64,000 nucleotides of DNA from Halomonas sp. 7T (GTDB lineage Bacteria > Pseudomonadota > Gammaproteobacteria > Pseudomonadales > Halomonadaceae). Positions 35,607-63,887 of the stretch are shown here, in pieces (within the stretch, counting starts at the first letter, position 1; the number at the start of each line of letters is the position of its first letter). The stretch is taken from the NCBI RefSeq assembly GCF_025643255.1, contig NZ_CP087112.1, forward strand, positions 2,790,001-2,854,000. The letters are read 5' to 3'. Below the pieces are notes generated by a model. It was not told the DNA's origin. It saw only the letters and a list, made by a program, of their open reading frames with translations, and made no database searches. Made by a program: the position numbers and the translations under genes.

Positions 35607-36509
35607 TTAGAAGATGGCGGCTAACGCTTTGTCGAGCGTCGGATACTGGAAGGTAAAGCCGGCCTCGACAAGGCGCGTGGGGCGCATATCAGCACCGGAG
35701 AGCAGCAACTGCGACATCTCACCAAAACCTGCTTTAAGCACAAAGGCAGGCACCGGAAAAATGGCGGGGCGATGCAGCTGTTTGGCCAGCGTCTGGGTAA
35801 ACTCCGCATTCGTCACCGGGTGCGGCGCGCTGCCGTTGAAGGCCCCAGAGAGCGCTGACTCATTTAGCAGGAAAATAATCGCAGCGACCAAATCATCGCG
35901 GTGAATCCACGGCATAAACTGTTTGCCATCGCCAAAGCGTCCCCCCAAGCCCAGCTTAAACGGGGGCACCATCTTCTGTAGCGTGCCACCGCCAGCATCC
36001 AGCACCAGGCCAATGCGCAGAAGCGCTAAGCGAACACCAAGCGCCTCAACCGGCTTCGCCGCGGACTCCCACTGTTCGCACAGCCGATGGGCAAACTCGT
36101 CATTGGGCGGCGTTGTTTCATCCACCACCTTACTACCCTGGTTGCCGTAATAGCCCATCGCCGAGCCGCTCACCATAACGCTAGGTACCGACTGGCCATT
36201 GGCTTTCAACTGCTCGCAGAGCATCACTAATTGCGCGGTACTCTCCACACGCGACCGTATCAGCTCATTTTTTTGGCTATCGCTCCAGCGCTTCGCAGCA
36301 ATCGACTCACCTGCCAAATTCACTAGCGCATCCGGCGGCGTATCCACAAATGCCTGGGCACTATCGCGGATATCGCAAGCCGCTGGCAAACGATCGCGTA
36401 CCTTGTGCGGCGCGCGGGAGACCACCTGAACGTCATGGCCTAACGCTACAAGCTGCTCAGATAAACGTTGACCAACAAAACCGCTGCCTCCGGTTATTAA
36501 TACCCGCAT
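35607..36509 (-). CDS. TIGR01777-family epimerase/oxidoreductase (YfcH-like)
   Basis: Extended short-chain dehydrogenase-like protein of unknown substrate, 300 residues. The NAD(P)-binding VLITGGSGFVGQRLSEQL (residues 3-20) is intact, and the C-terminal DUF1731-type segment (RPAIFPVPAFVLKAGFGEMS) is present. It diverges from the FAD-oxidoreductase gene; the 188-nt spacer holds the symmetrical ATTGTA-N20-TACAAT element, which offers a 19-nt-spaced promoter on this strand too. Membership of the light-response regulon is therefore likely by inference. Family members occur beside photolyase genes in other gammaproteobacteria (from memory). Confidence 0.88.
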   Translation of the reverse strand: MRVLITGGSGFVGQRLSEQLVALGHDVQVVSRAPHKVRDRLPAACDIRDSAQAFVDTPPDALVNLAGESIAAKRWSDSQKNELIRSRVESTAQLVMLCEQLKANGQSVPSVMVSGSAMGYYGNQGSKVVDETTPPNDEFAHRLCEQWESAAKPVEALGVRLALLRIGLVLDAGGGTLQKMVPPFKLGLGGRFGDGKQFMPWIHRDDLVAAIIFLLNESALSGAFNGSAPHPVTNAEFTQTLAKQLHRPAIFPVPAFVLKAGFGEMSQLLLSGADMRPTRLVEAGFTFQYPTLDKALAAIF

Positions 36510-36577: not shown

Positions 36578-36609
36578 ATTGTACGATATTTATACACAAG
36601 TGCTACAAT
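36578..36609. promoter_or_regulatory. Symmetrical MerR-type divergent promoter/operator
   Basis: Perfect inverted repeat ATTGTA (36578-36583) and TACAAT (36604-36609) 20 nt apart. Read on plus it gives TTGTAC-19-TACAAT; read on minus it gives TTGTAG-19-TACAAT. A 19-nt spacer is the hallmark of MerR-regulated promoters, and TGTAC/TACA half-sites are known for CarH/LitR regulators. An internal TTGTA...TACACAA half-dyad is also present. It serves the TIGR01777 gene (minus) and the FAD-oxidoreductase gene (plus). Confidence 0.7.
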
Positions 36610-36697: not shown

Positions 36698-37759
36698 ATG
36701 GCTGCATCACCGTCGCTTCATACTCTTTCGGCCCCTTGCGCTGTCGCCGTTATCGGTGCAGGCGTGTCGGGACTTGCCTGCGCCCATGAACTGGCACAAG
36801 AGGGGCTTAGCGTCTCACTATTTGATAAGGCGCGCGGTCCCGGCGGCCGTATGTCTAGCAAGCGACGGCCTCAGGCAACGCTCGATTTGGGTGCCCAAGC
36901 TTTTACCGTGCGCGACCCACGTTTTGCGCAAGCGGTAAACGAGTGGCAGCTTGCTGGCTGCGCAGTCCTTTGGCCCACCCATCGCTATCAGGCTAGCTCA
37001 AGCGGTTGGCAAACGCATAACGATGATCAGCGGCGCTACACCGGGGCGCCTCGTATGAGTGCCATCACGCGCCACATGACCGAAGCGCTCTCCGCTTTAC
37101 CCGGCGTAAACATGGCTTTTGAAACCCCCATTGTCGCGTTAACAAAAGGGGAAGCTGGCTGGCTGCTCACCGACCAACACGGCGCCACCCATGGGCCGTT
37201 TGCAGCGGTAGTCGTCAGCGCCCCACCCCCGCAAGCCTACTCACTTATCGCCGATTGGGATGACGCCCTGGCAGCCGCCTGCCAAGCCGCTCCACAGCGC
37301 GGCTGCTGGGCGGGCTGGGCCATTTTTGCCCAGCCACTCCCGCCCATTGAAGGTGTCGTACCTAACTGGCACACCGTAGAGACAGGCCATGAAGCGCTGC
37401 GTTTAGCCACACGCAATAGCAGCAAACCTGGCCGTGAGGAGCAGCCTGAGAGCCTTAGCCTACTGGCGCAACTTGATTGGAGTGATGACCATATTGAACT
37501 CGCGAGTGACGATGCGGCCCAGCAGCTGCTCGACGCTTTCACCTCGCTGTTCCCAGAAGGCACGACGCTGCCTGAACTGATTGACCTAGGCGCTCACCGC
37601 TGGCGGTATGCCCAGCCCGCCAATGCTGGGCGCCAATCATACTTATACAGTGAGCAGGGCCTGGCGCTCTGCGGCGATAGCTTTCGCGGCAGCCGCGTAG
37701 AAGATGCATGGCTTTCTGGGTACGAGCTAGCACAAGCACTATTAGGCCGGTCGGTTTAA
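36698..37759 (+). CDS. FAD/NAD-dependent oxidoreductase (renalase-like, COG3380 type)
   Basis: Predicted flavoprotein of 353 residues with the N-terminal Rossmann motif VAVIGAGVSGLACAHELAQE (about 16-35), the second glycine motif RGPGGRMSSKRR, and a C-terminal ALCGDSFRGSRVEDAW segment that closes the FAD site. The natural substrate is not known. GAGG lies four nt before the ATG. It is the first gene to the right of the symmetrical promoter, and the MerR/LitR-like regulator follows 213 nt downstream with its own control region. Homologues are regularly found next to photolyase genes (from memory), suggesting a role in light or oxidative stress. Confidence 0.85.
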   Translation: MAASPSLHTLSAPCAVAVIGAGVSGLACAHELAQEGLSVSLFDKARGPGGRMSSKRRPQATLDLGAQAFTVRDPRFAQAVNEWQLAGCAVLWPTHRYQASSSGWQTHNDDQRRYTGAPRMSAITRHMTEALSALPGVNMAFETPIVALTKGEAGWLLTDQHGATHGPFAAVVVSAPPPQAYSLIADWDDALAAACQAAPQRGCWAGWAIFAQPLPPIEGVVPNWHTVETGHEALRLATRNSSKPGREEQPESLSLLAQLDWSDDHIELASDDAAQQLLDAFTSLFPEGTTLPELIDLGAHRWRYAQPANAGRQSYLYSEQGLALCGDSFRGSRVEDAWLSGYELAQALLGRSV

Positions 37760-37800: not shown

Positions 37801-37841
37801 TTGTACCTAATAGCTACAAGTTGTACAAAGAGGCATATAAT
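37801..37841 (+). promoter_or_regulatory. Probable auto-regulated promoter of the LitR-like gene
   Basis: The region carries TTGTAC (37801-37806), TACAAGTTGTACAA (37815-37828, two overlapping palindromes) and a perfect -10 TATAAT (37836-37841). The order TTGTAC / ACAAG / (N)TACAA repeats that of the divergent promoter at 36578-36609. No good -35 stands at normal spacing from the TATAAT, as expected for an activator- or repressor-dependent promoter. Confidence 0.65.
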
Positions 37842-37972: not shown

Positions 37973-38902
37973 ATGGCGCCCATGAGCAACAAGGCGACCC
38001 ACCCACCCGACACTCCTCTCTATCCGATCCGGGAAGTTTCCCGTCTAACGGGTGTGAACTCGGTCACCCTACGTGCCTGGGAGAGACGCTACGGTTTAAT
38101 TCGCCCCCAACGTACCCCTAAAGGCCACCGACTCTACGCTCAAGACGACATCGCGCGTATTGAGCGTATCTTACAGTGGCTCAACCGTGGCGTGCCGGTC
38201 AGCCAAGTGGTTGACTTGCTTGACCAGCCTGAAGCGATAGAGACGCCCGCGCCAGCCGCAGGCGACTGGGCCAGTCAGCGCCAGCAGCTGCAAGCCGTCA
38301 TCGAAGCGGTCGACCTGCCCAAATTAGAGGCGATGTATCATCAGAGCCTAGCACTCTACCCGCTTAGCGTGGCTATTAATGAGCTGTGGCAACCGGTTAT
38401 TTTGTCCTTGGAATCAAAGTGGGCAACCCAACCTGATGACCTTGTTCGCCGCACGCTTGAAGCCTTTTTACGTAGCCAAGTAGGTATTCGACTTTACTAC
38501 GCTAACCAAGCTACCCGCGGGCCGCTGATTTTGCTGAGCGCAATGCCCGAGGACCCAGGTCCCTTATGGGTATTGATGTGCGCCCTGATGGCCAGTGAGC
38601 AGGGCTATCGAGTGCAGTTGCTTGACCACGCCCTAGCACTGGCCGACCTTCCCCAGGCAGTGGCGAGGCTCCACTCGTCCATGGTGCTGCTCTCTAGCGG
38701 GCAGCGGGAAAGCGACGCTTATATCCGTCACGCACTCCCTCAAGCGGCCCACTCGCTGAACGTGCCCATTGGCGTATGCGGCGAAGTGGCTCGGCTAAGA
38801 GAGGGCGAATTAAACGATGGCCCTGTGCATATGCTAGGCGATGACCTACCCCAGGCAATCGCGCGGCTTCGCCCTCTGCTACGTGAATCGGGCACTCTTT
38901 AA
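37973..38902 (+). CDS. MerR-family regulator, LitR/CarH-like without cobalamin ligand (class II LitR)
   Basis: Transcriptional regulator, 309 residues from the ATG at 37973. The N-terminal winged helix reads YPIREVSRLTGVNSVTLRAW, then ERRYGLIRPQRTPKGHRLY. The remaining 200 residues align with the four-helix and Rossmann cobalamin-binding domains of CarH/LitR. The W(x)nEH motif and the DxHxxG-type histidine loop are missing: where the ligand is expected the sequence reads AMPEDPGPLWVLM. This matches class II LitR proteins, known in Pseudomonas putida to control photolyase and lipid genes by light. The start is uncertain (ATG 37982 and GTG 37904 are alternatives). Its stop codon lies in the loop of a hairpin (38891-38911). 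Confidence 0.85.
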   Translation: MAPMSNKATHPPDTPLYPIREVSRLTGVNSVTLRAWERRYGLIRPQRTPKGHRLYAQDDIARIERILQWLNRGVPVSQVVDLLDQPEAIETPAPAAGDWASQRQQLQAVIEAVDLPKLEAMYHQSLALYPLSVAINELWQPVILSLESKWATQPDDLVRRTLEAFLRSQVGIRLYYANQATRGPLILLSAMPEDPGPLWVLMCALMASEQGYRVQLLDHALALADLPQAVARLHSSMVLLSSGQRESDAYIRHALPQAAHSLNVPIGVCGEVARLREGELNDGPVHMLGDDLPQAIARLRPLLRESGTL

Positions 38903-39024: not shown

Positions 39025-40437
39025 ATGAACTTACAGCTAGTATGGTTGCGCAGCGATTTGCGCATTCACGATAATTCGGCGCTCGCGGCGGCGGCGGCCA
39101 AGGGGCCCGTGATAGCGGTTTTTTTACGCAGCGTTGCCCAGTGGCAAGCCCACGGTCACGGCGCGAATAAAATCGACTTTTGGGCACGCGGCGTAGCGGC
39201 CATCAAAGCGTCACTTAACGGGCTTAACATTCCCCTCCTACACCGTGACATTGACCATTTTGATGAGGCCCCCCAGGCACTGCTTGAGATTGCCCGCGCC
39301 TATGGCGTCAAGCAGCTCCACTTTAATTACGAATACCCGCTCAACGAACAGCACCGCGATCAGGCGGTGCTAGAGGCGTTCCAGCAGGCCGATATCGCCG
39401 CCCACGGCCATCACGACGCCATTGCCTTTGCACCTGGCAGCCTGCTCACCGGCAAAGGCGATTACTACGGCGTGTTTACGCCCTTTTCAAAAGCGTGGCA
39501 CAAGCAGATAACAGCAGAGCAGCTTGCCCTTCGCGACACGCCCAAAGTGCAGTCACCACTCGATATCAAAAGCGACCCGCTCCCGTCACTGCCCTCCCTC
39601 GACGACGAGCCGCTGGATGGCCGCCACTGGCCCGCAGGCGAAAGCGCGGCTAGCGATAACCTAGAGCGCTTTTTACGTTTTCGTGGACGCCACTACAAAG
39701 ATCAGCGCGATATTCCCAAGGTGCGAGGCACCAGCGAGCTCTCTCCCTACTTAGCGCTGGGGATGATCTCCTACCGGCAGTGCATGCAAGCAGTAATGAG
39801 CGAAAACGACGGCCATCTTGCCGACGGCGATGCTGGCCTAACAACCTGGGTCAACGAGCTGATCTGGCGTGAATTCTATCAACACGTGGCGGTAGGCTTC
39901 CCCCAGGTGTGCCGCTACCAGCCGTTTCAATCGCACACCCAGCAGTTGCAATGGCGCGATGACGACGACGGGTTTGCCGCCTGGTGCGAAGGCCGCACCG
40001 GCTATCCCATTGTGGATGCCGCCATGCGCCAGCTCGTCACAACCGGCTGGATGCATAACCGACTGCGCATGATTACGGCGATGTTTTTAAGCAAACATCT
40101 GCTGATCGACTGGCGCCGAGGCGAGGCATTTTTTATGCGTCACTTGGTCGACGGTGAGTTTTGCGCCAATAACGGCGGCTGGCAGTGGGCGGCCTCAACG
40201 GGCACCGATGCGGCGCCTTATTTCCGTATTTTCAACCCGACCACCCAGTCCACGCGCTTTGACCCAGACGGTGAGTTCCTGGCTCAGTGGCTACCCGAAC
40301 TAAAAACCCTGCCCACCAAAGCGCGCCATGCACCGCCTCGGGACATGCTCACTCCTATCGAATACCCAGCACCGATCGTTGACCACAAAGCGGCGCGCCA
40401 GCGCGCATTGGATGCCTTCAAAGCGCTCTCCAAATAA
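39025..40437 (+). CDS. phrB: Deoxyribodipyrimidine photolyase (class I CPD type)
   Basis: Flavoenzyme that splits UV-induced cyclobutane pyrimidine dimers with blue light. The 470 residues open with LQLVWLRSDLRIHDNSALAA (antenna domain, photolyase alpha/beta fold). The FAD domain carries GYPIVDAAMRQLVTTGWMHN, then NRLRMITAMFLSKHLLIDWR, and NNGGWQWAASTGTDAAPYFR (about residues 375-394); the tryptophans of the electron-transfer chain are present. The ATG at 39025 is preceded by AGGAG; an upstream frame from 38950 would run through the terminator. First gene of a seven-gene plus-strand run. Confidence 0.96.
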   Translation: MNLQLVWLRSDLRIHDNSALAAAAAKGPVIAVFLRSVAQWQAHGHGANKIDFWARGVAAIKASLNGLNIPLLHRDIDHFDEAPQALLEIARAYGVKQLHFNYEYPLNEQHRDQAVLEAFQQADIAAHGHHDAIAFAPGSLLTGKGDYYGVFTPFSKAWHKQITAEQLALRDTPKVQSPLDIKSDPLPSLPSLDDEPLDGRHWPAGESAASDNLERFLRFRGRHYKDQRDIPKVRGTSELSPYLALGMISYRQCMQAVMSENDGHLADGDAGLTTWVNELIWREFYQHVAVGFPQVCRYQPFQSHTQQLQWRDDDDGFAAWCEGRTGYPIVDAAMRQLVTTGWMHNRLRMITAMFLSKHLLIDWRRGEAFFMRHLVDGEFCANNGGWQWAASTGTDAAPYFRIFNPTTQSTRFDPDGEFLAQWLPELKTLPTKARHAPPRDMLTPIEYPAPIVDHKAARQRALDAFKALSK

Positions 40438-40486
40438 CAACCACTCGAGCGACAGGTGTTACCACACCGTCAAAAAGGAGTCCTGC

Positions 40487-40918
40487 ATGTCTAACCCGCC
40501 AGCGGTGGAGAATTTTTGTGCTTTTTTCAACAAACTAGACAAAACATGTACAGAAAAGCTATACGAGGTATATACTGAGGAAGTTGTCTTCAACGATCCG
40601 CTACATCACATTGAAGGACGCAAAGCGCTTGAACGCTATTTTGCCGCCATGTACGAGAACGTTGAGCGCTGCTGCTTCACTTATCACACGCAGCAGCAAC
40701 AGGGAAATCAAGCGTTTGTGACGTGGACCATGGAGTTTGTGCACCCACGTTTAGCCCACGGCAAGCCGGTCAGTGTTGAGGGCTGCAGTGCCTTAACTTT
40801 TGCAGAGGATGGCCGGGTATCGCAGCACCGCGACTACTTCGACGCGGGGGCCATGCTGTATGAACACCTTCCTGTGATGGGGCGTGTCATACGCTGGTTA
40901 AAGCAGCGCCTTGGCTGA
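40487..40918 (+). CDS. SnoaL/NTF2-like protein
   Basis: Small cone-fold protein of 143 residues; the SnoaL-like fold is suggested by YTEEVVFNDPLHHIEGRKAL near the N-terminus and SALTFAEDGRVSQHRDYFDA near the C-terminus. Catalytic activity, if any, is unknown. The ATG at 40487 has a strong AAGGAG six nt upstream; an earlier in-frame start at 40328 overlaps phrB and is rejected. The same kind of gene sits between the photolyase gene and the SDR gene in light- and singlet-oxygen-induced clusters of other proteobacteria (from memory). Confidence 0.8.
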   Translation: MSNPPAVENFCAFFNKLDKTCTEKLYEVYTEEVVFNDPLHHIEGRKALERYFAAMYENVERCCFTYHTQQQQGNQAFVTWTMEFVHPRLAHGKPVSVEGCSALTFAEDGRVSQHRDYFDAGAMLYEHLPVMGRVIRWLKQRLG

Positions 40919-40982
40919 GACAGTGTGACCTCGTTTATGTGCGCGCACGTTGCGTGCTAACAGGCCGCTATAGGAGAGCAGA

Positions 40983-41768
40983 ATGAGCACATGGAAAACG
41001 CCCCAGCGCATCTGGTTAACCGGCGCGACCTCCGGCATTGGCGAGGCGCTAGCCAAGCAGCTCATTGCCGAGGGCCACACCGTGGTACTCAGCGCCCGCA
41101 ATGAAGAGGCCCTGAACGCGCTCTGCGATGATCATGCCAATGCCTACCCACTGCCACTGGATGTGAGCGATCATCAAGCAGTGCTGGCTGCGGGTGAACA
41201 GATTCGCGAGTGGCTGGGCGCGCTGGACATTGCGCTGTTCAACGCTGGCACCTGCGAATACCTCGATGCACGCCACTTTGATATGGCGCTCGTTGAGCGC
41301 GTCTTCACGCCGAACCTGTTTGGCACGCTGTACGGCGTCGAAGCCGCGCTTCCGCTGCTGCGTGCCGCTCGCCAAGAGGGCAAGCCAGCCCGACTGGCTG
41401 CAACATCAAGCGCGTCGGCCTACCTGCCGCTGCCGCGAGCAGAGGCTTATGGTGCCTCGAAAGCGGCAGTCAGCTACTTCTTGGAGTCGCTGCGCCTGGA
41501 CCTTCACCAGGAAGGGATCGACGTGAGCCTAATCCACCCTGGCTTTGTCAAAACACCGCTAACCGATCGCAACGATTTTCCAATGCCCATGCAAGTCTCT
41601 GCCGAAGATGCGGCCGACGCCATTATCACTGGCCTGGTTAAAGGGCGTCTGGATATTCATTTTCCCCGTCGTTTTACTTACATCGTTAAATTTCTGGGCA
41701 TTCTACCGCCCGCACTACGGCGCTACATCGGCCTACGCATGACGCGCCGTCAAGAGGAAGCACAATGA
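40983..41768 (+). CDS. Short-chain dehydrogenase/reductase
   Basis: Classical SDR of 261 residues: cofactor motif LTGATSGIGEALAKQL (about 11-26), NAG-type FNAGTCEY, catalytic Ser in ATSSASAYLP and YxxxK in YGASKAAVSY (about residues 155-164). The C-terminal end is basic and hydrophobic, hinting at membrane association. AGGAG precedes the ATG. It overlaps the next gene by 4 nt (ATGA). Within this cluster it is a candidate for modifying oxidised or methylated lipids (inference). Confidence 0.88.
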   Translation: MSTWKTPQRIWLTGATSGIGEALAKQLIAEGHTVVLSARNEEALNALCDDHANAYPLPLDVSDHQAVLAAGEQIREWLGALDIALFNAGTCEYLDARHFDMALVERVFTPNLFGTLYGVEAALPLLRAARQEGKPARLAATSSASAYLPLPRAEAYGASKAAVSYFLESLRLDLHQEGIDVSLIHPGFVKTPLTDRNDFPMPMQVSAEDAADAIITGLVKGRLDIHFPRRFTYIVKFLGILPPALRRYIGLRMTRRQEEAQ

Positions 41769-43117
41769 GTGGTACAGCATCCCAGCGTATTGCGATTATT
41801 GGCAGCGGTATTAGCGGCATGGCAGCAGGCTGGTATCTCTCCTCTCAGCATGAGGTGACGCTATTTGAAGCCGATAGCCGTTTAGGGGGCCACACTGCCA
41901 CGATGGACGTTGAAGTCAATGGCACCCCGTATGCCATCGATACCGGCTTTATCGTCTTCAACGACTGGACGTACCCGCACTTTCAGCGCCTGTTAGAAAC
42001 GCTCGGCGTGCCCAGCCAGGCCACTGAGATGAGCTTTTCAGTGCATGAGACTGACGTCGACTTTGAGTACAACGGTCATACGCTGGGCTCGCTGTTTGCC
42101 CAGCGCCGTAACCTGCTGCGCCCGGCGTTTTATCGCCTGCTCAGAGATATTTTGCGTTTTAACAAACAGGCCACCGCCGACTTAGAAAGCCAGCGTCTGC
42201 CCAGCGACATGACTTTAGGCGAATATTTGGATCAAAATGGCTACGGCGAAGCGTTTCAGCGCCGTTACCTGCTACCGATGGGGGCCGCGATCTGGTCGGC
42301 GAGCATTGGTGATCTCCGCGCCTTTCCCTTAACCTTTTTCGTGCGCTTTTTCCGCAATCATGGGCTACTCTCGGTCAATCACCGCCCGCAGTGGTATACC
42401 TTGGTGGGTGGCTCCAAGCGCTACATTCCCAACCTGACAGCCCCCTATGCGACGCGCATCCGACTCAACACGCCTGTCAGCAAGATTACCCGAAGCGATA
42501 CCGGCGTGATGATTACGACCGCTCAGGGGACAGAGCGTTTTGATCAGGTCGTGCTAGCCTGCCACGCCGACCAAGCGCTGGCCATGCTGGGTGACGCAAC
42601 CCCCGCTGAGCGCGATATTCTTGGCGCGATGCCATATCAGGATAACGAGGTGGTGCTGCACACCGACACATCTCTGCTGCCACGCCGTCAGCGCGCCTGG
42701 GCGAGCTGGAACTACCGGCTAGATGGCCGTGGGACGGAAGAACGTGTTTCGGTCACCTATGATATGAATATTTTGCAGCGTTTAGAGAGTGATACAACCT
42801 TCTGCGTAACGCTAAATGATTCAGAAAGCATCAATCCCGAGAAAGTATTAGGGCGCTACACCTATGCGCATCCACAGTTCACCCTGGCGGGCCAGGCCGC
42901 CCAGCTACGTCATGATGAGATCTCGTCGGTAGCTCGCCGCACGCATTTCTGCGGTGCTTACTGGCGCAACGGCTTTCATGAAGACGGCGTTTGGAGCGCG
43001 CTGCGCGTGGCCCAAGCGTTGGGCTGTGATGAAGCCGCCGAGCCGCCCGCCATGCCCACTGCACTGCCTGCCCACGAACTCGTACCCAACAGCAGCGTTG
43101 GGGAGGGTCTGGGATGA
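41765..43117 (+). CDS. FAD-dependent amine oxidase/desaturase-like protein (COG2907 type)
   Basis: Predicted flavin oxidoreductase, 450 residues. The Rossmann motif AIIGSGISGMAAGWYLSSQ (about 9-27) and the ADSRLGGHTATM glycine motif are intact; a C-terminal FCGAYWRNGFHEDGVWSALR segment completes the FAD site. It belongs with the protoporphyrinogen oxidase/phytoene desaturase superfamily. The gene overlaps both neighbours by 4 nt (SDR upstream, DUF1365 downstream), so the three proteins are made together. This gene with DUF1365 and the cyclopropane-synthase homologue forms a conserved trio in singlet-oxygen regulons (from memory); a lipid oxidation role is plausible. Confidence 0.87.
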   Translation: MSGTASQRIAIIGSGISGMAAGWYLSSQHEVTLFEADSRLGGHTATMDVEVNGTPYAIDTGFIVFNDWTYPHFQRLLETLGVPSQATEMSFSVHETDVDFEYNGHTLGSLFAQRRNLLRPAFYRLLRDILRFNKQATADLESQRLPSDMTLGEYLDQNGYGEAFQRRYLLPMGAAIWSASIGDLRAFPLTFFVRFFRNHGLLSVNHRPQWYTLVGGSKRYIPNLTAPYATRIRLNTPVSKITRSDTGVMITTAQGTERFDQVVLACHADQALAMLGDATPAERDILGAMPYQDNEVVLHTDTSLLPRRQRAWASWNYRLDGRGTEERVSVTYDMNILQRLESDTTFCVTLNDSESINPEKVLGRYTYAHPQFTLAGQAAQLRHDEISSVARRTHFCGAYWRNGFHEDGVWSALRVAQALGCDEAAEPPAMPTALPAHELVPNSSVGEGLG

Positions 43118-43863
43118 TAACGTCGCCCCGCTCGCGTATCTATCGTGGCACGCTGCGCCACCGGCGCTTTACACCCCAAGCGCACGCCTTTAGCTACCAG
43201 GTTTGGATGGCATGGTTAGATTTAGACGAGCTGCCCACCCTGTTTGATAACGTGCCCGGCTTCAGCGCACGCGGCCCTGCCTTGGCGCGCTTTCGTCGCG
43301 AAGATTATTTAGGGCCGACGGACCGCCCGTTACGGACTGCCGTCCGCGAAGAGTTAACCCGCCAACTAGGCAGCGCACCAGACGGCAAAATTTACGTGCT
43401 CACTCAACTGCGCACCTTTGGTTCGGTCTTTAACCCTGTTTCGATGTACTACGCGTACGACCACGTAGGCAGGCTCTCGGCGGTGCTCGGCGAAGTAACT
43501 AACATGCCGTGGAAAGAGCGCACCTGCTACGCATGCCGCGTCGACACCGCTCGCCATAGCCACCACGCAAGCTTCGAGAAAGTGATGCATGTCTCGCCCT
43601 TTAATCCCATGGAGATGACCTATCACTGGAAATTTAACCCGCCAGGAGAAACGCTCTACCTGCATATGGAAAACTGGCAAGACAGCGAGCGTCATTTTGA
43701 TGCCACGCTCACCTTAGAGGCCGCGCCGGCGACCCGCAAAGTGCTGCTGACGACGCTGGCACGGCAACCCTTTATGAGCCTCAAAACAGTCGCGGGAATC
43801 CATTTTGAAGCGCTTCGCCTGTGGCTTAAGCGCATCCCCGTTTATAACCACCCCAAGCGCTAG
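43114..43863 (+). CDS. DUF1365-family protein
   Basis: Protein of unknown function, 249 residues, recognisable from RIYRGTLRHRRFTPQAHAFS at the N-terminus and the conserved FGSVFNPVSMYYAYDHVG and HVSPFNPMEMTYHWKFNPPG segments. No signal peptide or clear transmembrane segment was seen. It overlaps the flavoprotein gene by 4 nt and lies 11 nt before the lipid methyltransferase gene. The invariant association of DUF1365 with these two neighbours suggests a common lipid pathway, but the activity is not known to me. Confidence 0.88.
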   Translation: MITSPRSRIYRGTLRHRRFTPQAHAFSYQVWMAWLDLDELPTLFDNVPGFSARGPALARFRREDYLGPTDRPLRTAVREELTRQLGSAPDGKIYVLTQLRTFGSVFNPVSMYYAYDHVGRLSAVLGEVTNMPWKERTCYACRVDTARHSHHASFEKVMHVSPFNPMEMTYHWKFNPPGETLYLHMENWQDSERHFDATLTLEAAPATRKVLLTTLARQPFMSLKTVAGIHFEALRLWLKRIPVYNHPKR

Positions 43864-43874
43864 GAGACTTCAAA

Positions 43875-45143
43875 ATGACGACCCTGCGTACCACGCCCCC
43901 TGCGAGCAAACCCGCTCGCCAAGATCGCATCACCCGCTGGATCAAACCGCGCTTAATGGCTCAGTTGGATGCTTTCCAGGGTGGCCGCATCACACTGATC
44001 GAGGGTGACCAGTGTCACCATCTTGGCCAAGCTGGGCCCCTGCAGGTGACGGTCGTCATACGCCACTCCCGTGCCTGGAAACGCCTTGCGTTTGGCGGCA
44101 CCGTGGGCGCTGCAGAGTCCTACATGGATGGCGACTGGGATGCCGATGACCTCGTCGCTCTGGTACGCCTATTTGCCGCCAACTTAGAACAAGTGAACGG
44201 TAAAATGGAAAACGGCAGCGCTCGCATAGCACGCTGGCTGTTAGGGTTCGCCTACCGTTTTCAGCGCAATAGCATCACAGGTTCTAAGCGCAATATTTCG
44301 GCTCACTACGATATTGGTAACGACCTGTTCGCCACGTTTTTAGATCAGCGTCACTGGATGTATTCCAGCGCCGTCTTCCCCTACCCAGAAGCCAGCTTAG
44401 AAGAAGCCTCCACTTATAAGCTGGATATCATGCTCGAAAAGCTGGATGTGCAGCCCGAGCATCACCTGTTGGAAATCGGCACCGGCTGGGGCGGGCTTGC
44501 CATCCACGCCGCTAAAACCCGCGGTTGCCGGGTCACCACAACAACAATTTCTGAAGAGCAGTATGCGCATACTGCACGACGCGTTAAAGAAGAGGGCTTA
44601 GAAGAGCAGATTACCCTCTTAAAACAGGATTACCGTGCGTTAGAAGGACGTTACGACCGACTCATTTCGGTCGAAATGATCGAAGCCGTCGGCCACCAGT
44701 ACCTCAACACCTACCTGGAGAAGGTCGACAGTCTGTTGACCGATGATGGCCAAGCCATGCTCCAGGCGATCACCATACGCGACCAACGCTTTGAAGAAGC
44801 CAAGCGGGAGATGGACTTCATCAAGCGCTACATTTTCCCCGGCGGCTTTCTCCCCTCGCATCACGCCATGCTCGCCAGCGTCACGCGTAAAACGTCGCTT
44901 AACGTGGTCGCCTTAGACGAAATTGGTCAGCACTATGCCCGCACCCTACGCGAATGGCGCCATCGGTTTGAGGCAAGCCTCGAGCAGGTGCGCCAACAGG
45001 GCTACGACGAGCGTTTTATCCGCATGTGGCGCTACTACCTCTGCTACTGCGAAGGGGGCTTTATCGAGCGCTCCATTGGCACCTGCCACCTGCTGTTAGC
45101 AAAACCGGCCGCCAAGCCAGTGCCACTAATGGGAGCGCTGTAA
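43875..45143 (+). CDS. cfa: Cyclopropane-fatty-acyl-phospholipid synthase family methyltransferase
   Basis: SAM-dependent enzyme acting on double bonds of membrane phospholipid acyl chains. It has 422 residues: an N-terminal lipid-binding region of about 120, then the methyltransferase domain with HYDIGNDLFATFLDQRHWMY, the SAM motif LEIGTGWGGLAIHAAK and the C-terminal YYLCYCEGGFIERSIG. It could be a true cyclopropane synthase or the related UfaM-type methyltransferase that starts furan-fatty-acid synthesis in Rhodobacter; sequence inspection cannot decide. The operon context (photolyase, flavoprotein, DUF1365) favours the stress-induced type. Confidence 0.92.
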   Translation: MTTLRTTPPASKPARQDRITRWIKPRLMAQLDAFQGGRITLIEGDQCHHLGQAGPLQVTVVIRHSRAWKRLAFGGTVGAAESYMDGDWDADDLVALVRLFAANLEQVNGKMENGSARIARWLLGFAYRFQRNSITGSKRNISAHYDIGNDLFATFLDQRHWMYSSAVFPYPEASLEEASTYKLDIMLEKLDVQPEHHLLEIGTGWGGLAIHAAKTRGCRVTTTTISEEQYAHTARRVKEEGLEEQITLLKQDYRALEGRYDRLISVEMIEAVGHQYLNTYLEKVDSLLTDDGQAMLQAITIRDQRFEEAKREMDFIKRYIFPGGFLPSHHAMLASVTRKTSLNVVALDEIGQHYARTLREWRHRFEASLEQVRQQGYDERFIRMWRYYLCYCEGGFIERSIGTCHLLLAKPAAKPVPLMGAL

Positions 45144-45681: not shown

Positions 45682-47520
45682 TTAATTGGCTCCAACCGCT
45701 TGCGGCAACGACGCCCAGCGCTTCTCCAATTCGCTGGCAGGTAAAGGGCGTGCAAAATAGAAACCCTGCACCTCTTTACAGCCCGCATTAACCAAAAACT
45801 CGCACTGCTCTTTGGTTTCCACGCCTTCAGCCACTACCTCAAGCCCCATGCCCGCCGCCATGGCAAGCACTGCCGTTACAATCGCCGCATCGGCTTGGTC
45901 ATTGGGTAGTTCGCGAATAAACGCGCGATCCAGCTTAATTTTATCCACCGGCAAGCGCTTTAAGTAGCCAAGCGATGAATAGCCGGTGCCAAAATCATCA
46001 ATCGCGATGGCATAACCCAATCCACGCAAGGTTTGTAGTCGTGGCCCCATATCGCCGGCACGCTCGTCCAGCAGTACCGATTCGGTCAGCTCCAGGCCAA
46101 TTTGCGCCGGCTGAAGTCGGTAGCGCTCTAAGCAGGTCGCCAGCTGTGTTTCTAGGTCACCTTGAAAGAGCTGAAGCGCCGAAATATTGATCCATACGGT
46201 AATTTTCGGCATGCCGCTGTGTTGCCAATGCGCCTGTTGGGCACACGCTTTTTCAATTACCCAACTGCCAAGCTCGGCCATCAGGCCGTGACGCTCAGCC
46301 AGGGGAATAAAATCTCCTGGCGATATCATGCCATCGCTAGGGTGGCGCCAACGCAGCAGCGCCTCCATCCCTACTAACTCGCCACTGCCTGGATCGTGCT
46401 GAGTTTGATAGTGAAGCTCTAACTGGTCACCCGACACCAGCGCTGCCCGCAAATCGCTCACCAAGGCGAGCTGGGGGTTATCCTGTTTATCCAGCGCTGG
46501 GCGAAACCGCTGGCTATTATTACGACCTAGCCGTTTAGCGCTATAGAGCGCGGACTCTAAGCGCTGAAACAACACAGCCGAGTCGCGACCATCCTCAGGC
46601 GCTCGGCACGTACCAAACGTTAGCCCCAAGCGCAGCGACTGTTCGTTAATTTCAAACGGGCGGCACATGTGATCCCGTAAATTAGCTACCCACTTATCGT
46701 GATCGTCAAAAGTCGTTGTGCGAATGACCATGAACTCATCACCGCCTAACCTACCTACAACGCTTCCCGCCATATAACTCGCCAGCCGCTGGCCAAAACG
46801 CGCCAGTAGGCGGTCGCCCTGTTCAACGCCTAGGCTATCGTTAATCGATTTAAGCCCATCAATATCGATCAGCACCATGTCCAAACTCTCGCCAGCACGC
46901 AAACCACGCAGTCGCGACGACATCAGGTCATGTAGGCGACGCCGATTGGGCAGCCCCGTCAGCGGGTCTTCATAACCGATGCGACGCAAATCGTGCTCAC
47001 GGGCTTTTTGTGCTGAAATATCAGTAAACAGGCTGATAAAATGGGTGATATTGCCGCGTTTATCCGTAATGGCTCTTACTTTTAACCACTCAGGATACTC
47101 ATCGCCGTGTTTACGGCGGTTCCACATCTCGCCTTCCCAGCGGCCCGTGGCTTTTAACGTGCTCCAAAAGCTTTGATAAAACGCTTTATCGTGGCGAGGC
47201 GCCGCTAGCGTTTCTAGTTTACGACCAACCATCTCCTGGCTGTCGTAACCGGTAATATCGGTAAATGCGGGGTTCACAGCGACCACACGGTTCTCTACGT
47301 CGCTAATCACCATGGCATCGTTGGCCAGCCCCATGGCATCTTCGGTAAGGCGCAGGCGCAAACGTTGCTGACGCACTTGGCGCCAAGCATCCCATAAGCC
47401 CAACGCCACTAAACTGGCCGCGACAATACGCAGCGCAGCATCGGGGATCCATACGCAGGCAGGCAGAGCCACCAGCGCCATCCACATTAGCGGTCGATTA
47501 AGAGAAACAGGCAGCCACAT
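45682..47520 (-). CDS. PAS-GGDEF-EAL signalling protein (c-di-GMP turnover)
   Basis: Membrane-anchored protein of 612 residues. Two N-terminal hydrophobic segments (about 8-45) are followed by a PAS domain (about 60-175; VNPAFTDITGYDSQEMVG), a GGDEF domain with intact GRLGGDEFMVI (about residue 258), and an EAL domain with GMEALLRWRHP, ELTES and DDFGTGYSSLGYLKRLP. Both catalytic signatures look complete, so it may make and break c-di-GMP; which activity dominates is not readable. It has almost no periplasmic part. It stands alone, divergent from fabA. Confidence 0.93.
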   Translation of the reverse strand: MWLPVSLNRPLMWMALVALPACVWIPDAALRIVAASLVALGLWDAWRQVRQQRLRLRLTEDAMGLANDAMVISDVENRVVAVNPAFTDITGYDSQEMVGRKLETLAAPRHDKAFYQSFWSTLKATGRWEGEMWNRRKHGDEYPEWLKVRAITDKRGNITHFISLFTDISAQKAREHDLRRIGYEDPLTGLPNRRRLHDLMSSRLRGLRAGESLDMVLIDIDGLKSINDSLGVEQGDRLLARFGQRLASYMAGSVVGRLGGDEFMVIRTTTFDDHDKWVANLRDHMCRPFEINEQSLRLGLTFGTCRAPEDGRDSAVLFQRLESALYSAKRLGRNNSQRFRPALDKQDNPQLALVSDLRAALVSGDQLELHYQTQHDPGSGELVGMEALLRWRHPSDGMISPGDFIPLAERHGLMAELGSWVIEKACAQQAHWQHSGMPKITVWINISALQLFQGDLETQLATCLERYRLQPAQIGLELTESVLLDERAGDMGPRLQTLRGLGYAIAIDDFGTGYSSLGYLKRLPVDKIKLDRAFIRELPNDQADAAIVTAVLAMAAGMGLEVVAEGVETKEQCEFLVNAGCKEVQGFYFARPLPASELEKRWASLPQAVGAN

Positions 47521-61163: not shown

Positions 61164-63887
61164 CTATGCGGTCTCTGGTAGCTGTAAATATTCAATCGGC
61201 TGAGGCCGTGAGAAGAAGTAGCCCTGATAGGCAAGACACCCTTGCGCGTTCAGCCAGTCGCGATGTGCCTGGGTCTCGACCCCTTCGGCAATGAGCTCTA
61301 ATTCTAGGCTGTGGGCCAACGCAATCACCGTCCGCACAATCGCGGCATCAGCCGGATCTTCTAGCACGTCTCGAACAAAGGACTGATCAATTTTAAGCTG
61401 ATCCAAAGGGAGCTGTTTGAGGTAGGCCAAGGAGGAGTAGCCGGTACCGAAATCATCCAGCGAGAAACGAATACCTAACTGCCGCAACGCCTCCATGCGG
61501 CAGCGCACTTCTGCGATGTCCTCCATTAGAAGCGACTCGGTCACCTCTAGCTTTAGCCGCTGCGGCTTTGCCCCAGTGCGTGCCAACACGGCTTTGACTT
61601 GCTCAACAAAGCCCTCCTGGCGAAACTGGTTAGGGCTAACGTTAACCGCAGCACTCAGCGCTGAGGTATGCGGCTGCCGCGACCACTCGACTAGCTGCCA
61701 ACAAGCAGTTTCCAACACCCACTCGCCAATCATGCCAATAAGGTGTGTTTCTTCGGCTAGTGGAATAAAAACGCCCGGCGAGACAACCCCACGCTCGGGA
61801 TGGCACCAGCGCACTAGCGCCTCAACGCCCACCACCTGTCCATGTTCGTTTACTTGCGTTTGGTAATAAAGCGATAGCTGCTGTCGCTCAACCACATGGC
61901 GCAGGTCGGACTCTAACTGTGCACGCTCCATGATGGCGGTCTGCATAGAGGGGTCAAAAAAGCACAGGGCGTTACGACCAGAGGCTTTGGCTTGGTACAT
62001 CGCCAAATCTGCCTGCTGTAAAATTTCGCTGACGCCTACCTCCTTCCCAGCAAATAGCGTCACGCCAATGCTGCCTGAAATTTGTAGCGGGTGGTCATCA
62101 ATGACCAGCGGCTCCCTGAGTGCCGCCAGTAGCTTATAAGCCACGCCTTCTGCATGCTGTGCCGCCGTCGCAAGGTCACTTCCCAGCTCATGCAGCATCA
62201 CCACAAACTCGTCACCGCCTAGGCGAGCGGCGGTATCGCTATCACGTACGATCCCTGCTAGCCGCTTAGCCACCGATACCAGTAACGCATCGCCTAAATA
62301 GTGGCCTAGGCTGTCGTTAATGGTTTTGAAGTTGTCCAGGTCAATAAACATGACCGCGCTGTAATGAGACTTCTGGTGTGTCTCCTGCTGACGCGCCTCA
62401 ATACGATCAATTAAGAGACGTCGGTTGGGCAGTCCGGTAAGCGCATCAAAAAACGCTAGCTGATGAATTTCCTGCTCCGCGGCTTTGCGCTGGGTAATAT
62501 CGCTTAACGTGGCGACATAGTGGGTAATCGCCCCGTCATCGTTACGCACTACGCTGATGGTCAGCCACTGGGGATAAATTTCGTCATTCTTACGCCGATT
62601 CCACACTTCGCCTTGCCAGCTATCTTGCTGATTGAGTGATAGCCACATCTGACGATAAAACGCCGCATCATGGCGACCAGAATTCAACATGCTGGGCGTA
62701 TGTCCGACTACCTCGTGCTCCGCGTAACCGGTAATCTGACTAAAGGTGTGGTTCACCTGCACAATGCGGTTATCCGCATCGGCAATAAACATGCCCAGGT
62801 GGGTTTCAAACGCCATAGCCGCGATTTTGAGCTGAGCAGCCTCAAGCTCGGTGGCTTGCTGCGCTTTCTTTCGTGCCGCCACTTCCTGGGTCAGTTGAAA
62901 ACGGTGTTCACGTAAGCCTTGCTCTGCCGCGTAAAGGCGTCGATAGTGATGAAAAGCCGTTGCCCCTAATGCCGCTAACAGCCCCACAATCACTAAGATA
63001 ATCCAAAAGCGACGCCACCAGTCGGATAGATAAAAGGTCGTGTCTTCTCCACTAATCACTAACCAGGGTGCATCGCTCAAGCGCCGCACGCTAAACAGTC
63101 GCTGCGTGTTATCTAGCGGTGAGACGCGTTCCCAGGTGGCCTCTATGTCACCACTGGCTAAAAAATGCGCCAACTCAGGCGTACTGACCTCACGGCCCAG
63201 CGTGGCAGGCACTTCCGCGCCTCTCTGGGAACGCTGCATAATAACGCGGGGCGTTGAATCTAATAGCGCTAGGCTCGCGCCGTCGTTCAGAGTCAAACGC
63301 CCCATCAGCTGCACAAAATAAGCCGGATCTAGCCGTGCAACGATATAGGCCTGTGGCTCATCAGCGCTGCTTTCTACACGTAATACGTGCAGCAAGCGTA
63401 GCCCACCTGCTTGTTCTGACTGATAAAGGCGCGTGACGGCATCGCGGCGGTCGCCATGCTCGGCTAACGCAGCAAAAACATCGTGTACCCCCACCTCAAA
63501 CCGTGTGTTCTGACGCGAAAGCGTTGAGGCTAATACGTTACCGCGCAGATCCACCAGCCCCACTTCGTCCCACAGGGCGACTTGGTCGCGTTGCTGCGTC
63601 AAATAGTCAGTCAGCACGGTGGTGGCCAGGCGCTCCTCGCGCGCAAGCCGATAGAGCGCTTCTACACTTTCAAGGGCATGGCGCGAGGTATCAAGGGCGC
63701 TGCCTAGCCATTCCGCCACCACATCGGCACTTGCGCCGGTGCGCGACTGCGCAGAAGCCCGCTGATCGAGGTAGTAGGTGCGCATCTCCCATGCCACCAG
63801 CGAAATGATACTTAACAGTAATAAGCCTCCCAGGCACCCTACCCATCGCGGTGAGAGGTGCCGCCACTTATCATTCCAATACCTCAA
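61164..63887 (-). CDS. Cache-PAS-GGDEF-EAL signalling protein (c-di-GMP turnover)
   Basis: Large membrane sensor of 907 residues: TM1 (about 15-33), a periplasmic double-Cache-like domain (about 50-285), TM2 (about 293-312), a coiled linker, a PAS domain (about 358-470; VNHTFSQITGYAEHEVVG), GGDEF with ARLGGDEFVVM (about 565), and EAL with GVEALVRWCHPE and DDFGTGYSSLAYLKQLP. Both active-site signatures appear intact. The start is a TTG at 63885-63887 with AAGGAG five nt upstream. It overlaps the TGA stop of the preceding GGDEF gene (TTGA), so the two are translationally coupled. Confidence 0.9.
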   Translation of the reverse strand: MRYWNDKWRHLSPRWVGCLGGLLLLSIISLVAWEMRTYYLDQRASAQSRTGASADVVAEWLGSALDTSRHALESVEALYRLAREERLATTVLTDYLTQQRDQVALWDEVGLVDLRGNVLASTLSRQNTRFEVGVHDVFAALAEHGDRRDAVTRLYQSEQAGGLRLLHVLRVESSADEPQAYIVARLDPAYFVQLMGRLTLNDGASLALLDSTPRVIMQRSQRGAEVPATLGREVSTPELAHFLASGDIEATWERVSPLDNTQRLFSVRRLSDAPWLVISGEDTTFYLSDWWRRFWIILVIVGLLAALGATAFHHYRRLYAAEQGLREHRFQLTQEVAARKKAQQATELEAAQLKIAAMAFETHLGMFIADADNRIVQVNHTFSQITGYAEHEVVGHTPSMLNSGRHDAAFYRQMWLSLNQQDSWQGEVWNRRKNDEIYPQWLTISVVRNDDGAITHYVATLSDITQRKAAEQEIHQLAFFDALTGLPNRRLLIDRIEARQQETHQKSHYSAVMFIDLDNFKTINDSLGHYLGDALLVSVAKRLAGIVRDSDTAARLGGDEFVVMLHELGSDLATAAQHAEGVAYKLLAALREPLVIDDHPLQISGSIGVTLFAGKEVGVSEILQQADLAMYQAKASGRNALCFFDPSMQTAIMERAQLESDLRHVVERQQLSLYYQTQVNEHGQVVGVEALVRWCHPERGVVSPGVFIPLAEETHLIGMIGEWVLETACWQLVEWSRQPHTSALSAAVNVSPNQFRQEGFVEQVKAVLARTGAKPQRLKLEVTESLLMEDIAEVRCRMEALRQLGIRFSLDDFGTGYSSLAYLKQLPLDQLKIDQSFVRDVLEDPADAAIVRTVIALAHSLELELIAEGVETQAHRDWLNAQGCLAYQGYFFSRPQPIEYLQLPETA

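Follow-up and report, generated by a model that had tools for sequence, protein, structure and literature searches.

The stretch at 36578-36609 of the window (the whole 64-kb stretch of DNA analyzed, from a 3.63 Mb genome whose nearest named relatives are Vreelandella/Halomonas) is, with a rough probability of 0.72, the operator of the class II LitR-type (B12-independent) repressor encoded next to it. In this reading, half-sites located 11 bp apart lie over two overlapping divergent promoters, repression would be relieved by light via a short LOV protein, and both flanking genes would be expressed together. We infer the binding, the repression, the light control, and both start sites. What we observed directly is the sequence itself, the 11-bp periodicity and its conservation, the arrangement of the genes, the class to which the regulator belongs, a short LOV gene in the genome, and similar sites upstream of light-response genes. 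The elements of the stretch are as follows.

36579..36589, plus strand: 11-bp module 1, TTGTACGATAT, with half-site TGTACG, read from the sequence; the module pair scores at least 10/12 in 75/81 family spacers.
36590..36600, plus strand: 11-bp module 2, TTATACACAAG, with half-site TATACA, read from the sequence, within the N20 of the dyad ATTGTA-N20-TACAAT.
36601..36609, plus strand: module 3 or extended -10, TGCTACAAT, with the right dyad arm; TGNTANNNT stands at +22 in relatives.
36580-36585, plus strand: possible rightward -35, TGTACG, within module 1.
36604-36609, plus strand: rightward -10, TACAAT, part of the extended -10 TGCTACAAT.
36583-36578, minus strand: putative leftward -10, TACAAT, over module 1.

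The first-pass annotation had described this stretch as a perfect dyad forming a mirror-symmetrical promoter with a 19-bp spacer. The dyad is present exactly as claimed, with ATTGTA at 36578-36583, an N20, and TACAAT at 36604-36609, and both strands can be read as TTGTA[C/G]-N19-TACAAT. No other exact match occurs in the 64-kb window or in the genome. We rejected this rarity as evidence because a control pattern was at least equally frequent: with up to two mismatches, the window holds one match versus a shuffle mean of 1.00, and with up to one mismatch, the genome holds two sites versus five for the reversed control pattern. Given that near-copies do not exceed the controls, the dyad alone proves nothing, and conservation must decide. 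Alignment of the spacer, the check that had been proposed, showed the exact symmetry to be local, the arms being fully complementary (6/6) in 5/21 aligned same-genus loci, one of which is the window, and in 0/54 aligned family loci outside the genus (median there, 2/6). Among 24 named Vreelandella/Halomonas loci, which partly overlap with the 21 genus loci, 6/6 arms occur in nine and the 11-bp repeat (at least 11/12) in 19. Since the dyad is not conserved, its mirror symmetry is unsupported as a functional feature, and a conserved dyad centered in a 19- to 20-bp spacer, as in MerR-type activator promoters, was not found here.

Far better conserved than the dyad is an 11-bp direct repeat in the same stretch, whose module 1 contains most of the left dyad arm and whose second half-site, TTATAC, lies within the N20. 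We aligned 81 TIGR01777 spacers (window included) on their best TTRTAC-N5-TTRTAC match, scored out of 12. The score was 12/12 in 52 loci, 11 in 12, 10 in 11, 9 in 5, and 7 in 1; thus 75/81 reach at least 10/12, compared to 0 to 3 loci in each of 20 shuffles, and lower scores are confined to 4/25 genus loci and 2/56 others. When one strand was tested, a direct spacing of 11 with at least 11/12 matches was found in 64/81 spacers (0 to 1 in each of 20 shuffles), and none of the other direct spacings between 6 and 30 reached this threshold in more than 7/81. With both strands counted, the period-11 repeat is present in 70/81 spacers (18/25 in the genus and 52/56 in the others), and periods 13 and 18 are present in 16/81 each. 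As control upstream regions, those of phr (0/77), SnoaL (0/47), SDR (2/47), AO2 (0/47), and the RapA-like gene beyond TIGR01777 (0/32) were scored for period 11. The order of the two words varies: the window features TTGTAC-N5-TTATAC, the commonest form in the genus, and loci outside the genus mostly feature TTATAC-N5-TTGTAC. The near-palindromic nature of T[AG]TACA leaves the orientation of the half-sites unproven: reread, the 81 spacers also yield inverted words (offset 13) in 45/81 and everted words (offset 9) in 27/81. In loci outside the genus, both half-sites conserve their 5' TT above the 3' bases, which favors the direct orientation, and the direct reading is better than an inverted or everted one, though not exclusive.

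This arrangement resembles the operators of CarH. CarH operators from Thermus, Bacillus megaterium, and myxobacteria consist of tandem 11-bp direct repeats, nnnnTnnACAn, placed over the -35/-10 elements, and divergent promoters are the expected targets of those in Sorangiineae and Nannocystineae (PMC9304148); the spacer shares the tandem 11-bp repeats over promoter elements and, with some of these operators, the expected divergent service. The module 2 half-site TATACA fully fits the CarH repeat TnnACA as defined there, TGTACG in module 1 and GCTACA, which module 3 of the window also reads, are partial matches, the latter a partial third half-site, and two repeats are found family-wide. The tandem 11-bp TnnACA operator known from B12-dependent CarH is present, and by its sequence the spacer repeat is of CarH-type operator geometry. 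The published class II LitR consensus, T(G/A)TACA-N12-TGTA(C/T)A with an 18-bp period (PMC9758184), does not occur at the TIGR01777 spacer, which carries the 11-bp repeat instead. The half-site type proposed earlier, TGTA(C)A-like, agrees with the T[AG]TACA-type half-sites of the spacer.

The genes around the spacer, together with a second candidate site, are listed below.

35607..36509, minus strand: TIGR01777-family oxidoreductase, predicted leftward target (NCBIfam TIGR01777, 335.7 bits, cutoff 207.35).
36698..37759, plus strand: FAD-dependent amine-oxidase-fold oxidoreductase, predicted rightward target (Pfam PF01593, E 4.3e-21).
37802..37827, plus strand: regulator-proximal TGTACC-N14-TGTACA (20-bp period), from the sequence, followed by TATAAT at 37836-37841.
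37973..38902, plus strand: MerR-type regulator, class II LitR-like, with an in-frame ATG at 37973 or 37982 (Pfam MerR_1, E 1.9e-17).
39025..40437, plus strand: deoxyribodipyrimidine photolyase (NCBIfam NF007955, 555.6 bits, cutoff 506).
40484..45143, plus strand: SnoaL-like, SDR, second FAD amine oxidase, DUF1365, and CMAS-family methyltransferase genes (Pfam; synteny in relatives).

As the annotation had it, a LitR/CarH-family regulator is encoded beside the spacer. In addition to its MerR_1 match, the protein has CarH as its closest solved structure (5c8d, aligned over residues 6-243, E 8.9e-19) and combines a MerR HTH with a CarH-like C-terminal part, as in class II LitR. The Wx9EH motif and the lower axial His are B12-ligand features of CarH; at these positions of the 5c8d alignment, read by eye, the regulator has W, RT, and G, so the B12-ligand residues that would mark a B12-dependent CarH are not kept. 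Its Pfam B12-binding score is 21.7 bits versus a cutoff of 32.1, and against the CarH model of NCBIfam it scores 103, far short of the cutoff of 400. Among the 120 database relatives listed, at least three were named "light-induced transcriptional regulator" at source. On these comparisons, the regulator is a CarH/LitR-like protein of the class II LitR type with the B12-ligand residues missing. The genome holds one full-length match to it, two others (E 4.6e-5 and 6.0e-5) covering ~95 residues, and matches were found in 147/151 family genomes (own included), some of which cover the HTH part alone. A gene for the short LOV partner of a class II LitR is also present in the genome, encoding a protein of 146 aa (PDB 7r5n, E 6.6e-58) with a DCRFLQ motif, and we infer that this protein partners the regulator at 37973-38902. 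In the ~330 bases upstream of the short LOV start, no TGTAC-type pair was seen by eye, in line with the unchanged expression of pmSB-LOV in P. mendocina (PMC9758184). In contrast to those CarH proteins, which use coenzyme B12 (CarA being a B12-independent paralogue; PMC9304148), the regulator lacks the ligand residues, and the light input is likely a separate LOV protein.

For the comparison of loci, ~10-kb regions were taken from 80 of 146 relatives, giving 81 loci with the window. Their gene order is steady: the RapA-like gene, TIGR01777 (reverse), an FAD or other gene, the regulator, and, where the region extends, the photolyase and the rest. The CMAS-family methyltransferase at the cluster end is UfaM-like by position, and the linked photolyase, SDR, FAD, and UfaM-like genes that accompany class II LitR are all found; a Pseudomonas-like locus, L228, has them in this order too. 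The right-hand gene is variable, with the FAD gene present in 43/81 loci (window included) and a CbiX-type gene after the spacer in 3/3 tested loci without it. These CbiX-type genes take the FAD position after the same operator (L059:5104-5481, L085:5025-5393, and L101:5029-5397).

The assignment to a light-response cluster holds up, in that the Pseudomonas counterpart of the cluster is light induced (PMC9758184). In P. mendocina, light raises phrB and ufaM 25- to 33-fold and pmlR1 5.7- to 10-fold, and PmlR2, a class II LitR, represses in vitro until illuminated LOV relieves the repression (PMC9758184). With these PplR/PmlR systems of P. putida and P. mendocina, which pair a class II LitR with a short LOV protein, the window genome shares a similar gene set (LitR, photolyase, SDR, FAD oxidoreductase, and UfaM), and likewise a B12-less LitR, a short LOV gene in the genome, and cry and folE genes with sites (PMC9758184).

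The spacer also holds candidate promoter elements for both directions. TGNTANNNT begins at +22 in 14/21 genus and 33/54 other aligned loci and at +21 or +23 in six further loci, and was not found in 7/21 genus and 15/54 other aligned loci. A position that can move in this way is more in keeping with a -10 element than with a third repeat, and it would place the extended -10 at 17 to 19 bp from a T(G/A)TACA -35. We scored -10 elements in the 75 aligned loci by a simple hexamer score. For the rightward direction, the top-scoring -10 coincides with the extended -10 (+25) in 27/75 loci; five loci have it at +24 and seven at +14, and it is off +24/+25 in 43/75. For the leftward direction, the top-scoring -10 lies over repeat 1 (+4) in 39/75 and at +15 in 17/75. 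In the window, the best rightward -10 is at +25 and the best leftward one at +9, not +4, which counts against an exact mirror. The leftward -10 over the first repeat reads TACAAT in the window and mostly TATAAC in relatives. In most of the 41 FAD loci examined, an in-frame start codon lies ~36 to 119 bp past repeat 1 (258 bp in one locus); none was found in three. In one compact locus, L093, the element sits in a gap of ~83 bp between the two start codons (the TIGR01777 start being extrapolated from the alignment), which makes shared control likely and suggests that one DNA element probably does serve both divergent genes, as had been claimed.

The proposed mechanism would thus involve two, perhaps three, head-to-tail 11-bp half-sites overlying two overlapping, outward-facing sigma-70-type promoters, such that each dyad arm would roughly be the -10 of one promoter and part of the upstream element of the other, with the extended TGCTACAAT as the putative rightward -10 and the leftward -10 over the first repeat. 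In the dark, the repressor would cover both promoters; in blue light, the short LOV protein, encoded elsewhere in the genome, would pull it off, and the TIGR01777 and FAD genes would then be expressed together. Bidirectional promoters of E. coli are similar in that RNA polymerase engages pseudosymmetrical DNA in two orientations, but there, one symmetrical -10 serves both directions, whereas here two -10-like elements ~20 bp apart appear to lie under the operator (PMC12825309). Alternatively, the operator might control mainly one side, either TIGR01777, the constant neighbor, or the rightward operon, the opposite promoter being elsewhere or incidental. It is true that the element accompanies TIGR01777 whichever gene lies on the right, that leftward -10 calls are scattered, and that the extended -10 is directed rightward; however, the commonest -10 position on each strand falls on the element, and the spacing in L093 leaves scant room for another promoter, and we regard control of mainly one gene as unlikely.

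The regulator gene has its own candidate site, in a different geometry. In the genus, TGTACC-N14-TGTACA lies upstream of it in 23/25 loci, and neither form was found in 2/25; outside the genus, T[GA]TACA-N12-TGTA[CT]A does so in 34/56, with neither form in 22/56. The latter matches the published 18-bp TGTACA-N12-TGTACA-type sites of PplR1/PmlR2 (PMC9758184); unlike in PplR/PmlR systems, the own site of the LitR gene has a 20-bp period in the genus, and an 11-bp distance separates the half-sites of the TIGR01777 spacer and of the EAL, cry, folE, and some photoactive yellow protein genes. Five loci from a single family of the order, taken as Pseudomonas-like from their gene content, all show the TIGR01777/FAD divergence; four of them (L220, L222, L226, and L228, not L224) carry an N12 site between the two genes, and no exact 11-bp pair turned up in any of the five. 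The shared operator therefore seems older than the 11-bp geometry, which, from this sequence comparison, looks like a Halomonadaceae change. The proposed switch is thus of a known kind, with a repeat spacing unusual for class II LitR, and since the published consensus has an 18-bp period, the match of regulator and site rests on family, location, and regulon rather than on an identical site. In listings from open-access literature searches, we found neither a report of this operator in Halomonadaceae nor a description of 11-bp spacing for class II LitR, and PMC12826048 gave zero hits for MerR, LitR, CarH, Halomonas, photolyase, and promoter.

Similar sites elsewhere in the genome outline a predicted regulon. 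Intergenic sites precede the cryDASH (~250 bp upstream), folE, EAL, and photoactive yellow protein (PYP) genes, and in genus loci the 11-bp repeat (at least 11/12) is found upstream of EAL in 18/23, cryDASH in 24/27, folE in 19/30, and PYP in 11/24, with a shuffle maximum of 2; other spacings peak too, in up to 17/27 for cry, 9/30 for folE, and 6/23 for EAL. The PYP gene is present in 23/82 genus genomes, and the repeat site in under half of PYP loci. Whole-genome scans were noisy. With up to three mismatches, the three-module pattern gave 22 forward and 23 reverse matches and its control 14 and 13; with up to one mismatch, the N12 pattern gave 11 versus 7. For this reason, we counted a site only if it was retained in relatives. 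We disregarded, as probably due to chance, own-genome matches that lay between hflX/hflK-like genes (named by eye), next to transposase-like genes, or within coding frames. In Pseudomonas, cryB and folE are listed light-inducible PplR/PmlR targets (PMC9758184).

One could suppose that a different regulator binds the 11-bp site and that LitR controls its own promoter alone, given that the spacing differs between the sites (11 versus 18/20 bp). This is quite improbable, since the genome has one full-length regulator match, the half-site word is shared, and 11-bp sites precede relatives of cryB and folE (PMC9758184). With one full-length match in the window genome, a single protein may read both 11-bp and 18/20-bp sites. 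It is tempting to speculate further, at somewhat less than even odds, that the B12-less LitR of Halomonadaceae reads two operator builds, 11-bp head-to-tail repeats at TIGR01777/FAD, cryDASH, folE, EAL, and PYP and an 18/20-bp pair at its own promoter. If so, one conserved light operon would have had its operator geometry rewired on the way from Pseudomonas-like bacteria to Halomonadaceae or the reverse, and the PYP operon would also come under a repressor governed by LOV, linking two photoreceptor systems. The proposed operator predicts a light regulon, site by site, in Vreelandella/Halomonas and offers a natural comparison of one repressor family using CarH-like 11-bp repeats and 18- to 20-bp pairs; if the PYP site is real, a well-studied but functionally unclear photoreceptor would come under a LOV/LitR switch.

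That one MerR-type dimer on the dyad untwists a 19-bp spacer and activates both directions is highly improbable: the exact dyad and the 19-bp arrangement exist in the window, the adjacent gene encodes a MerR-family protein, and some named congeners (9/24) keep the arms, but none of the 54 aligned loci outside the genus does, and the spacing to the extended -10 is off by one base in six loci. By letter count, moreover, TTGTAC at 19 bp matches TTGACA no better, or less well, than T(G/A)TACA at 18 bp. Repression, not activation, was seen in vitro for the class II LitR examined (PMC9758184), and at a bidirectional promoter the MerR activator SoxR has opposite effects on the two directions (PMC12825309). 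The 19-bp MerR promoter of the first-pass annotation was thus rejected on conservation, the conserved spacing being 11 bp and that to the extended -10 being 17 to 19 bp.

Several further observations concern the neighborhoods of these sites. The PYP gene of the window genome (191256-191715; L210, site 2257-2283 and gene 2342-2716) matches PDB 1kou with E 6.6e-64 and is followed by coumarate-ligase-like and ammonia-lyase genes, with the 11-bp repeat upstream. The EAL gene is followed by a PAS-GGDEF gene (own genome ~279082-280951; L207:1583-3452), and its upstream 11-bp repeat is kept in congeners; the EAL-domain gene is RimA-like at 295 bits, under the cutoff of 430, and the arrangement suggests that c-di-GMP or ribosome modification is an output linked to light. 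Two frames of the window near the light cluster also have matches, one of 614 aa to PAS and one of 910 aa to PAS and EAL (~47014-47322 and 61200-62795). Finally, one genome, G354, carries two different PYP genes (L256 and L261), 86% and 74% identical to that of the window genome.
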